DNA from: Rhizobium sp. NLR16a
GTDB lineage: Bacteria; Pseudomonadota; Alphaproteobacteria; Rhizobiales; Rhizobiaceae
DNA length: 64,000 bases
Reading direction: 5' to 3'
Assembly: GCF_017948245.1 (NCBI RefSeq)
Contig: NZ_CP072865.1
Coordinates: forward strand, 2,567,501-2,631,500
Part shown: positions 2,636 through 19,076 of the stretch, piece after piece
Layout: each line of letters opens with the position of its first letter
Numbering within the stretch: position 1 is the first letter of the stretch
Made by a program: the position numbers and the translations under genes
The notes under the pieces: model-generated
The model's database searches: none
What the model was told of the DNA's origin: nothing
The model's input: only the letters and a program-made list of their open reading frames with translations

Positions 2636-4099
2636 TCAGTTCGGTTCCCGGATGGCATCATCCAGGCCGCGCAGCAGCGGGTAGAGGAAATAGGAGATCA
2701 CCGTCCTGTTGCCGACCTTGATCTCTGTGGAGACGGTCATGCCCGGCAGCAGTGTGACCGGCACGTCCGAGGCGTTCAGTCTCGTGTCGGCAAGCAGGAT
2801 GCGAGCCTTGAAGAAGGGCGCGGCCGGCTGGCTCGAGGTGGCGGTCTGTTCCTGCTGCTGGCCGGTCATAAACGTGTCCTGGCTGATGGTGCGAACTTCG
2901 CCCGACGCGGTGCCGTATTTCTGAAAGGGATAGGCGTCCAGCTTGATGCGAGCCTCCTTACCCACGGCGATGCGGCCGATGTCGCGGGTGTTGATCGAGA
3001 CTTCCGCTTCGAGCGGCACGTTGATCGGCACCAGCGTGACGATCGGTTCGGCTTCGCGCACGACCGAGCCGATAGAGCGCTGGGCGAGATCGAGCACGAC
3101 GGCGTCGGCAGGTGCTGTCAGCGACACCATGTTGCGGCGCAGCTCCATCTTCTTCAGTTCCTCGTCGGCCATGTCACGCTGGCCGCGCAGCTCCACCAGC
3201 TGTTCCATCGCGGCGCGGCGGAAATCCTCGATGAAGGCCTGGCGGTCGGCTTTCAGCTTGGCAAAGGCATGCGCCGCCTCGTCGGCTTTGCCGCGCACGG
3301 CGGTCAGATCGGACTCGACGTCGAGGCGGGCGTCGCGCGAGCCGAGCATGGTGATCAGCGAGCCGCTCTGCTTGTCGTAGAGCCGCGTGCGGGCGCCTTC
3401 GATCTGCGAGAGCGTGTCGCGCCTGTCGATGAGCACGGCCTCCTGGTTCTTGGCCGCGGCAAGCGCTGCCGACTGGCCGGCGATCTGCTGCTCGAAATTC
3501 TGCAGCTGCGCCGTATAGAAGGCCCGCCGCTGGCCGAAGAGCTGCACCTGCAGCATCTCGTCGGGCGTCGTTCCCGCGATCATCGTGTAGTCGTCTCCGG
3601 CAAGTTCCGCCTCGATGCGCTTCACCTGGGCGTCGAGTGCCGAGAACTTCGCCTGCTGCTGGTCGACATCGGCCTGGCTGAAGGTGGCGTCGAGAGTTGC
3701 GAGCGTCTGGCCGGCATGCACCACCTCGCCGGCCTTCACATCGATCGTGCGGATGATCGAGGTTTCGAGCGGCTGGACGACGATGGTCGGCTGGGTGGTG
3801 ACGAGCTTGCCGGGCGCAATCACCACCTCATCGATATCAGAGACGGAGGCCCAGATGATGATCGCAGCAATCAGCGCCGTCACACAATAGAGCGTCATGC
3901 GCGCAACGCGCGGCGGAGCACGTTCCTCGAGCTCGACGGCGTCGGACTGGAATTCGGCAATTGCTGGCGGCAGCGGCGGGCGAGCGACGAGCTGCCCGCC
4001 CCTGCCTGGCGGCCCCTTGTCTGAAGGGCCATGGTCTGAGGCACCCTTGTCTGATGGAATTGGCAGGTTCTCGCTGGATTTTCTGACACGCGCGTTCAT
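2636..4099 (-). CDS. type I secretion membrane-fusion (HlyD-family) adaptor
   Basis: Periplasmic adaptor that links the inner-membrane ABC exporter to a TolC-type outer-membrane channel. It has 487 aa. An N-terminal cytoplasmic stretch of about 60 residues carries Ser-Asp/Lys-Gly repeats. One membrane segment follows (about residues 63-82, LYCVTALIAAIIIWASV), then a lipoyl half (VIAPGKLVTTQP), a long coiled coil, and a beta-barrel end with VTLLPGMTVSTEIKVGNRT. ATG at 4099 gives an ATGA overlap with the exporter stop, which implies translational coupling; the frame extends to 4126 but that start would lie well inside the exporter. No TolC gene is present nearby, so the outer-membrane channel must be encoded elsewhere. 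Confidence 0.93.
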   Translation of the reverse strand: MNARVRKSSENLPIPSDKGASDHGPSDKGPPGRGGQLVARPPLPPAIAEFQSDAVELEERAPPRVARMTLYCVTALIAAIIIWASVSDIDEVVIAPGKLVTTQPTIVVQPLETSIIRTIDVKAGEVVHAGQTLATLDATFSQADVDQQQAKFSALDAQVKRIEAELAGDDYTMIAGTTPDEMLQVQLFGQRRAFYTAQLQNFEQQIAGQSAALAAAKNQEAVLIDRRDTLSQIEGARTRLYDKQSGSLITMLGSRDARLDVESDLTAVRGKADEAAHAFAKLKADRQAFIEDFRRAAMEQLVELRGQRDMADEELKKMELRRNMVSLTAPADAVVLDLAQRSIGSVVREAEPIVTLVPINVPLEAEVSINTRDIGRIAVGKEARIKLDAYPFQKYGTASGEVRTISQDTFMTGQQQEQTATSSQPAAPFFKARILLADTRLNASDVPVTLLPGMTVSTEIKVGNRTVISYFLYPLLRGLDDAIREPN

Positions 4100-16900: not shown

Positions 16901-19076
16901 CGGGCTGGAGGTTGGCAACGCTCGTATTGCGCCAGAAGCGCAGGTTGGCATCATCATAGCCAACGGTGATGGCGCCAAGATTATTGCCGACATCATCGAC
17001 CTTGAATAACTGGCCGGTCAGCGAATTCTCCGGATTGCCGCCGCCAATGGCCGGTGGGCTGAAGCGTGGATCGCGGAAGGTGCCTGTCCATTGGTCGGAA
17101 GGATCGATATCGCCGCCGGCCCATGTCTCCTTGTAGGTGATGAGGGTGCGATAAGGCGTGCCGTCGGCGCTATAGGCGTTGCCCCAGCGGGTACGCCAAT
17201 AGACCTCGTTGCCGCTCCAGAACATCAGGTTTACGCCCGCGTCGCGCGCAGCCTCGACATTGGTTCTCTGCTGTCCCGACCAGTATTCGTCATGCCCGGC
17301 ATCGACATAGGTCTTGTGATTGAGCAAGAGGCTGCCATAGCGGTCGGCGTCGACACCCGACAAGTAGGAGACGTCATAGCCGTTCTGTTCCAGCCAGTAG
17401 ATACCCGCATATTCGGCGCCGAACAGATAGTCCTGGGGACCGGCGTAAGTGCCGACATTGCCGCGGGTGGCAATCGGCCTGTTGTAGCTGACCGCATAGG
17501 CGCGGCCGGCGCCCTGCCCCGTCGCAGGCCCGTTGCCGCCATACAAGTTCGCGCCACCCCAGCCATTGTAAGCTTGCCAGGTCTCATCCGCGGTCTGGAA
17601 GACGACGTCACTGTGGCTGTCGTCGTCGCGCACGATGAACGGAATGTGGTTAGATCCGGAGGTACCGTCCTGACGCACGAGCTTGGCGATATAGACGCCC
17701 GAGACGGCATCATCAGGTACCGTCCACGACGCCGAGACGGCCCAGTTGCCGGCGTCCACTGTGCCGGTCGTGGCATTGCGCAATGGACTGGGCTGAGTCT
17801 GCAATCCGGTATGCTGCATGGTCGCGACCTTGCGCGCTCCCATGCCGCCGTAATAGCCGAGCCGATAGATATCGATCCGGTAATTGGTGGAGTTGGTATT
17901 GATCTTAAAGCTGATCGTCTTTCCGTTATCGACGCTGATGTCTGTCGCAAACCCCTCGATGTTGGAGCTACCGGCACCGTTGATGCCCCACTCGCTCTCC
18001 GGATTGCCCTGCTTCTGGTTTTCCAGCACGATCGCATTGCTGGCAGCCGCCGCCGTGACCGCCAGACTTTGCGTTGTCGATGACCCCTGCATAGAAGGCT
18101 TAGGTGGCTTCGTCACAGAGCCGGACAGGATACCTATATCCTTGGATTTTGTTCCCGTTCCCGTCTCTCCCCCGCCTGGCAGGGTTCCATTGGTGAGCGC
18201 CACGTCCGACCATGTTGCGGTTCCGCGCCAGCCCGAGAGCGGGGACAGGTCCCGATCGAAAAGCGGATCGCTGATCGAGGCGCCGATGGCCTGCTTGATC
18301 GTCGCGACATAGTCAGGTCCTTCGGTCAGCCTGGTCCCCGGCAATTGACCGTCCTGTTGAAGCAGGGCGCCGCCATGGGCCCAATCGAGGATGCGCGTCG
18401 GTGAGGTAAAGTAGCCGCACCCGCACACGCCAAAGGGCATGCCGAAGGCCAGCGAATTCGCGCCGGCGTCGTGCGCGGTCGCCTGCCCTGACGGGCTCGA
18501 TTCGAGAATAACGACCTTGCCCGAATGAGCACGTCCGGCCGCCACCTTAGGAACACCTTCCCCCGAAGCTGTCGATGCCGGGCTTTGCGGCAGATAGGCA
18601 GCCAGAGGATCGTCGCCCATGGAGCTCATTCCGGGATAGGAGCTCATTCCGGTATAGGTGCGCTGAAGGGACGATGTCGTCCCGAACGCAACTCCGTCCG
18701 CGTGCCACGGGAAACTCGCAAGATTCGGCATAGAACCCGACAGCGCGGCCCCGTCACCGCTTAGAATTCTCATTTCGCTAGGCGTGGCGATCGTGTCGGT
18801 TAAGGGCCGCTCGTCGACGTTTTTGTCCGAGTCGCCGTTCACGTGCGCTTTCTGCCCATGATGTTCGTTGAGGGCCGCATCCTTATAGGGATCGTCGACA
18901 AGGGTGCCCTGCTTGTGTCCATCGGCGGTTTGCACCAATGCCGCAAGTTGAGCACTATCCCTATGCTTTTCAGCAGGCTTGCGCGGTCTCTCTTTTCCGC
19001 CGACGGTGAACCACCGGGGCACCAGCGAGTCCAGGAGGAGTGAGCGCGAAGTCCACCGGCGGGCGTTGCGATACAT
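13917..19076 (-). CDS. giant DMFase-beta-like/VCBS/DUF4082 protein 2, putative type I substrate
   Basis: Protein of 1719 aa, paralogous to giant 1. Residues 1-345 are low complexity with a Cys-Gly-Cys-Gly patch. Residues 349-840 form the DMFase-beta-like domain with GHDEYW (His595, Tyr598) and GNEVYW (Glu624, Tyr626). An Ig-like domain (855-950) and DUF4082 (950-1103) follow. Next come two identical 223-aa units with VCBS-like and putative-Ig parts (about 1105-1554), then DUF4082 (1557-1719). ATG at 19076 has GAGAGG 8 nt upstream; an in-frame GTG at 19085 is the alternative. It lacks a signal peptide and RTX repeats, and its C-terminal tail matches giant 1 (PQLxA end). It is the first gene of the block that runs down to HlyD. 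Confidence 0.88.
14416..15762. repeat. 678-bp in-frame tandem duplication inside giant protein 2
   Basis: Copy A starts at 14416 and copy B at 15094, an offset of 678 bp (226 codons). Over the roughly 669 bp compared by eye only two differences were found (14517/15195 and 15051/15729). Both are synonymous third-position changes, so the encoded units are identical. Each unit holds a VCBS-like domain ([20 protein letters not shown]) and a putative-Ig domain ([30 protein letters not shown]). Confidence 0.95.

Follow-up and report, generated by a model that had tools for sequence, protein, structure and literature searches.

Two giant DMFase-domain proteins, each paired with a ZigA-like GTPase, in a type I exporter locus of Rhizobium sp. 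NLR16a

The stretch of DNA analysed here (the window) comprises 64,000 nucleotides of the 6.58 Mb genome of Rhizobium sp. NLR16a (contig NZ_CP072865.1, positions 2,567,501 to 2,631,500). It contains seven genes on the minus strand (2636-19076), transcribed in the order giant A, GTPase a, giant B, GTPase b, an unknown protein of 101 residues, an HlyB-type exporter and an HlyD-type adaptor (table 1). The spacing between them is only -31 to 202 bp, so that they likely form a single operon. A first-pass annotation, made from the letters alone, had described seven same-direction genes with two giant/GTPase pairs, and all seven were located as described. The pairing of a giant protein, carrying the catalytic domain of dimethylformamidase (DMFase), with a GTPase of the G3E family proved to be one-to-one, real and conserved, and it is predicted by a cysteine motif of the giants.

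Table 1. Features of the locus, with positions in the window. Residue numbers of giant A count from the GTG at 19085; for GTPase a, the ATG at 13819 was chosen over the start of the longer open reading frame at 14029.
Feature	Position	Strand	Description
Giant A, ~179 kDa	13917-19076	-	DMFA2_C (325 bits), two DUF4082; order: N-terminal region with CGCG, DMFA2_C, DUF4082, two near-identical VCBS/He_PIG units, DUF4082, short hydrophobic C-terminus
DMFA2_C domain of giant A	16650-17879	-	iron-site equivalents Y506, Y515, H598, E600
CGCG motif of giant A	18414-18425	-	in the N-terminal region
GTPase a, COG0523/ZigA-like, 394 aa	12635-13819	-	CICC; Pfam/NCBIfam matches, tree
Giant B, ~158 kDa, 1506 aa from the likely ATG	7912-12432	-	DMFA2_C (346 bits), three DUF4082; layout: DMFA2_C, Ig/cadherin-like units, three DUF4082, short hydrophobic C-terminus
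DMFA2_C domain of giant B	10360-11616	-
CSCG motif of giant B	11206-11217	-	in a DMFA2_C insert, between both Tyr and the His-x-Glu of the iron site
GTPase b, COG0523/ZigA-like, 410 aa	6661-7893	-	CICC; Pfam/NCBIfam matches, tree
Small unknown protein, 101 aa	6282-6587	-	no Pfam or NCBIfam family
HlyB-type ABC exporter, BltD equivalent	4096-6240	-	C39-like N-terminal domain
HlyD-type adaptor, BltE equivalent	2636-4126	-
Polysaccharide export protein, divergent from giant A	19687-21027	+	Poly_export; SLBB slightly below cut-off
Amino-sugar cassette	22805-28336	-	DegT, SDR (short-chain dehydrogenase/reductase) epimerase, hexapeptide acyltransferase, DegT, Gfo/Idh, hexapeptide acyltransferase

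Both GTPases carry a GxxxxGKT loop, the sequence CICC and cobW and CobW_C domains above the Pfam cut-offs, and thus belong to COG0523 (G3E). To our knowledge such GTPases are widespread, but the client is known for few of them. In public records, some orthologues of GTPase b are labelled '4-hydroxytetrahydrobiopterin dehydratase', an apparent misannotation.

Of 297 genomes sampled from the order, 20 encode DUF4082 proteins and 118 have a strong ZigA-like gene. The first-pass annotation had suggested looking for co-occurrence of DUF4082 proteins with COG0523 genes; in 13 of the 20 DUF4082 genomes, a giant has a ZigA-like gene as its immediate neighbour on the same strand, downstream in nine (G000, G029, G325, G144, G174, G175, G246, G269 and G322) and upstream in four (G080, G216, G238 and G289). 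By our own estimate, chance placement of two such genes in a 5-Mb genome would hardly ever bring them side by side, and the pairing is far beyond chance. There are seven DUF4082 genomes without an adjacent ZigA-like gene: five (G037, G143, G187, G268 and G314) have none at the threshold, and two (G215 and G296) have one elsewhere. A class-wide sample of 385 genomes yielded DUF4082 in three, two of them already counted; the third (G434), from another order, carries consecutive genes for giant, GTPase, small protein, HlyB and HlyD. The arrangement first noticed at this locus, a type I exporter with DMFase-domain giants that each have their own GTPase, is carried by soil and nodule bacteria and is conserved in six families of the order and in this one genome of another order.

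The 66 GTPase places in the mapped loci, typed by best tblastn match and including some genomes fetched twice, comprise 23 of GTPase a with giant A, 35 of GTPase b with giant B, 6 beside a giant cut at the end of the locus and 2 divergent GTPases in mixed pairs. Giant A keeps GTPase a in three genomes where it lies at a locus apart from the exporter (L076, L078 and L079), and no exporter is present within the fetched stretch for 26 of 73 giants with an adjacent GTPase. Because the pairing is one-to-one and persists where giant and exporter are unlinked, the giant is what the GTPase belongs with; the idea that it is a component of the exporter is weakened. Distant relatives are under-sampled in this comparison, since the scan for relatives retained the best 80 of 568 confirmed places.

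Motif and iron-site counts are based on a set of 200 giants, 60 further stretches included, from which 9 were left out. Merging of duplicates gave 173, and 27 cut ones were dropped, leaving 127 alphaproteobacterial and 19 other giants. Those left out lack the string GHDEYW (L096, L146 and L281) or come from loci with no DUF4082 match (L060, L148, L155, L216, L217 and L221).

According to the available part of its published description, the DMFase of Paracoccus binds iron through Y399, Y440 and E521, and H519 is essential; the published residue numbers match the mutant chains 6lvd and 6lve. Through a bridging family, these residues map onto Y506, Y515, E600 and H598 of giant A and their equivalents in giant B, so that both giants have a DMFA2_C domain with the Tyr, Tyr and Glu iron ligands and the catalytic His. 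The five mapped iron-site or catalytic residues are conserved throughout the 146 usable giants. For His and Glu this is partly due to selection, because giants without the string GHDEYW were left out; conservation of Tyr, Tyr and Asn is free of such selection. The iron site of the giants is very likely real, as judged from this conservation. It does not account for the GTPase, because the residues are equally kept in giants without one: they are identical in the 73 giants adjacent to a GTPase, in 54 without an adjacent GTPase and in the 19 from outside Alphaproteobacteria.

The cysteine content of the giants follows a different pattern. Giant A has only two cysteines in 1722 residues, both within CGCG. 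A strict CxC (no Pro) is present in 69 of the 73 giants with an adjacent GTPase versus 4 of the 54 without; the four GTPase-adjacent giants that lack it carry CCGxCG, seemingly at the matching place as judged by eye. The wide motif (CxC or CCGxCG) occurs in 73/73 GTPase-adjacent giants, 9/54 without an adjacent GTPase and 0/19 non-alphaproteobacterial ones, and in shuffled proteins in 0.17 of 73 on average. No cysteine whatever is found in 25 of the 54 GTPase-less giants. Among 45 newly fetched Bradyrhizobium giants, which include close relatives of the giants from the earlier loci but none with an identical DMF region, the motif was found in 13 of 13 with a GTPase versus 6 of 32 without (p = 3.7e-7). 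For B-like giants the contrast is 38/38 versus 0/6. A Pagel test on a midpoint-rooted FastTree tree favours dependence of GTPase and motif (likelihood ratio LR 27.7, p = 1.4e-5), the GTPase being gained only on a motif background. The cysteine motif, and not the iron site, predicts the pairing of giant and GTPase. Its role may be read in two ways, as a metal acceptor or as a docking site for the GTPase; COG0523 proteins are said to dock on the zinc finger of methionine aminopeptidase. A different, four-cysteine motif, CxxCxxxxCxxC, is seen in GTPase-less giants of Devosia, Tardiphaga and Bradyrhizobium (L118, L120, L126 and L224).

The first-pass annotation had suggested that the GTPase serves the iron site. 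The iron residues are indeed intact, but they are equally intact without the GTPase, which tracks the cysteine motif instead. A role of the GTPase in loading or protecting the DMFA2_C iron site itself, with the motif as only a lineage marker, is consequently unlikely, even though every Paracoccus ligand and the essential histidine have conserved counterparts in both giants, and COG0523 proteins have been proposed as metal insertases, with one subgroup named for activation of iron-type nitrile hydratase (available text of PMC2770081). No such GTPase neighbours the cytosolic DMFase-like genes in the 12 loci examined, and the ZigA relatives are tied, in the part of the literature available, to zinc rather than iron.

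Several features of a type I export system are found in the operon. The HlyD adaptor scores 312.7 bits against TIGR01843 (cut-off 208.65); the HlyB-type exporter reaches 687.9 bits against TIGR01846, slightly under the cut-off of 725.55, and its Pfam ATP-binding cassette (ABC) and C39 domains are above cut-off. There are no GGxGxD sequences of the RTX type in either giant; these are usual in type I substrates and not required. No TolC-type outer-membrane channel is encoded in the operon, the genome beyond it not having been searched. A signal-peptide-like start was found in 0 of 28 exporter-linked giants versus 16 of 24 relatives outside the class (hydrophobicity mark 2.3; 3 of 27 relatives' loci with cut genes left out), by a crude measure that uses a hydrophobicity window and mechanically chosen, uncertain starts, the reading frames of L096 and L119 being wrong or broken. 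A short ending, for example FRPQLAA, is common to most of the giants linked to the exporter. Judged from their starts, the same catalytic and DUF4082 domains seem to leave the cell by Sec in Actinobacteria and by type I export here.

The 101-residue protein, the sole small protein of the operon, accompanies the exporter in 28 of 29 loci, whether or not a GTPase is present. It is predicted to have a confident beta-beta-beta-alpha core and a low-confidence tail ending in NASPNFN, and the ending SPNF is conserved in most of 22 aligned sequences. It matches no Pfam or NCBIfam family and no DMFase entry among PDB sequences. No relative of the DMFase small subunit was found in the operon, the rest of the genome not having been searched.

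Cadherin, VCBS or Ig-like units lie between the DMFA2_C and DUF4082 domains of both giants (Pfam), and the DUF4082 model is similar to lectin-like and carbohydrate-binding-module domains, among others. The near-identical units of giant A, read in translation, are ~220 residues long; two such units are likewise reported for pRL90159 of Rhizobium leguminosarum in the available text of PMC2275737. A cassette of Gfo/Idh, DegT, epimerase and hexapeptide genes adjoins DMFA2_C/DUF4082 genes in Actinobacteria, Acidobacteria, a Planctomycetales metagenome-assembled genome and others. This linkage to polysaccharide genes is patchy, being found in several phyla but not everywhere. DMFA2_C may be a deacylase of amino-sugar polysaccharides. 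A third DUF4082 giant of the same genome, outside the window (L203:5255-10588), has 1777 residues with Calx-beta and sugar-dehydrogenase-like domains; a polysaccharide lyase gene follows it, and it has no DMFA2_C and no GTPase match in the 20-kb stretch. In another genome of the genus, a 628-residue protein with DMFA2_C alone (L060:8114-10000) lies in a closely related polysaccharide cluster, with no exporter or GTPase match beside it in the stretch.

On this basis we tentatively propose, as an explanation with a slightly less than even chance of being correct, that the locus encodes type I export of polysaccharide-directed, amidohydrolase-like giants, each of them attended by a GTPase of its own that acts on a cysteine site in the cytosol. 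Each giant, with a DMFase-type amidohydrolase domain, an intact iron site and glycan-binding-like DUF4082 domains, would be translated beside its own ZigA-derived G3E GTPase. The cytosolic GTPase would recognize the cysteine motif, CGCG in A and CSCG in B, which would be a site of metal placement or a dock, used before or during threading through the exporter. The HlyB/HlyD machine would then export both giants to the surface or the outside, where they would act on or in the cell's amino-sugar-rich polysaccharide. The narrower version, in which each GTPase loads a metal in the cytosol onto the two-cysteine CxCG site of the giant it is paired with, ahead of type I export, is possible but rather doubtful. 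If it is true, type I substrates would have a dedicated step of metal loading, and the zinc-starvation chaperone ZigA would have been recruited twice, once per substrate, with the acceptor motif placed differently in each.

Several observations weigh against the proposed explanation. The wide motif was defined after the four exceptions to strict CxC had been seen. Nine of the 54 GTPase-less giants carry it (4 CGCG and 5 CCGxCG); among them, one (L233) has a GTPase ~4 kb upstream, and three others, from two genomes, have a GTPase of the linked type elsewhere in the genome. Within A-like giants the contrast is weak (34/34 with a GTPase versus 9/13 without, p = 0.004). The statistics of motif and GTPase rest on few events, because there are only ~3 changes of the motif and ~8 of the GTPase on the tree. 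Twelve of 28 loci with exporter and small protein have no GTPase. Fewer than three cassette genes lie within the stretch in 59 of 79 loci (from the best 80 of 568) and in 24 of 27 relatives' loci, as counted by tblastn at 100 bits with only 12 control loci; there are none in nine stretches beside B-only loci of six genomes. Lastly, type I substrates pass the exporter unfolded, and a metal placed beforehand might therefore not survive export.

The GTPases might alternatively be spare zinc-homeostasis genes carried along with the operon and acting on general clients or on the zinc supply. Their resemblance to the genome's own ZigA (64-66% identity), whose gene adjoins a znuA gene (240 bits) with Zur-box-like palindromes, speaks for this. 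However, no convincing Zur box precedes giant A: the best score with a small, home-made matrix is 7.2 here and <=3.7 in 26 other loci (some genomes twice), compared with 12.3-23.9 for the boxes used to build it and 23.9 for an unused box by the genome's own zigA. Even where the locus is split, each GTPase remains beside its own giant. The operon GTPases score 563.6 and 559.0 bits against the ZigA equivalog NF038288, under its cut-off of 600, and in the tree they fall outside the znuA-linked ZigA group; group a is one clade (79/84 support) and group b is not resolved as one. H244 and H295 (numbering of GTPase b) are kept in 23/26 and 25/26 GTPases a and in 30/30 GTPases b, and eight canonical ZigA sequences have Y in 7 at the former position and F in 4 at the latter. 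We consider this alternative quite unlikely.

More improbable still is the view that the giants are structural adhesins or matrix proteins, with DMFA2_C as a non-catalytic binding fold and a GTPase that aids folding or quality control. Cadherin, VCBS and Ig-like domains do take up much of both giants, and matrix proteins are among the type I substrates of R. leguminosarum in the literature as far as available; the complete retention of the five mapped residues, with the partial selection of His and Glu noted above, argues against a purely binding role. That the giants are bacteriocin-like, as proposed from the similarity of BltDE to bacteriocin exporters (available text of PMC2275737), is very improbable given their intact iron-site residues, their glycan-binding-like domains and partial polysaccharide linkage, the same features in relatives with Sec-like starts in other phyla, and an operon in which no immunity-like domain was matched (Pfam, NCBIfam) and the 101-residue protein matches nothing.

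If the proposed explanation is correct, it has several consequences. Here are two paralogues, each beside an obvious client with a two-to-four-cysteine motif that is possibly a recognition or acceptor site, and the choice of client is therefore directly testable. The question arises of how a metal site could be reconciled with type I export in the unfolded state. The polysaccharide link provides a candidate substrate for a domain known from the hydrolysis of solvent and amino-acid amides, a domain that apparently exists in Sec-exported and type I-exported forms.

The closest known system is BltDE of R. leguminosarum (johnstonii) 3841. According to the available text of PMC2275737 (2008), the exporter BltDE (pRL90164/pRL90165) is encoded just downstream of pRL90159 and pRL90161, giants of 179 and 184 kDa without RTX that have a repeated motif of ~140 residues; the authors predicted their export by BltDE and guessed at a bacteriocin-like role, and a 2024 review, as far as available, repeats this. 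The statement in the first-pass annotation that no described system of this kind was known to it is not borne out: the exporter and giants were already known, as a prediction, since 2008. The pRL9 record lists a DUF4082 protein, a GTP-binding protein, a DUF4082 protein, a GTP-binding protein, a hypothetical protein, an ABC transporter and HlyD, an identical seven-gene order, and the same divergent polysaccharide genes are present. The ~140-residue repeat as published matches DUF4082 in size. The available main text of PMC2275737 contains no mention of GTPase, GTP-binding, cobW or formamidase, nor of the locus tags between the giants. No report of the GTPase pairing or of a DMFase-polysaccharide link was found in literature searches that were not all aimed at these. 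What looks new is the matching of the GTPases, the cysteine motif and the link with genes for surface sugars.

ExpE1 of Sinorhizobium meliloti, with ExpD1/ExpD2, likewise has its own type I system encoded in an exopolysaccharide cluster, and expD1/expD2 mutants are blocked in the corresponding exopolysaccharide (available text of PMC1403797). Unlike the giants, it is calcium-binding and NodO-like with a PrtD/PrtE-type exporter, and no DMFase domain or GTPase is mentioned in that part of the article. Paracoccus DMFase and N-acetyl-(R)-beta-phenylalanine acylase (PDB 6lvb, 8huy) share DMFA2_C and the iron and catalytic residues with the giants but have only ~770 residues; the former is inactive without its small subunit, according to the available description. 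The operon GTPases resemble ZigA/YciC-type COG0523 proteins in CICC, both Pfam domains and overall identity, and differ from ZigA in their lower equivalog scores, the want of a convincing Zur box and the extra conserved histidines. For a GTPase with a single dedicated client, a parallel is found in nitrile hydratase, which uses a CSC metal claw and is not known to be secreted. Its activator, of COG0523 subgroup 2, is likewise a GTPase that serves one metalloenzyme (available text of PMC2770081).

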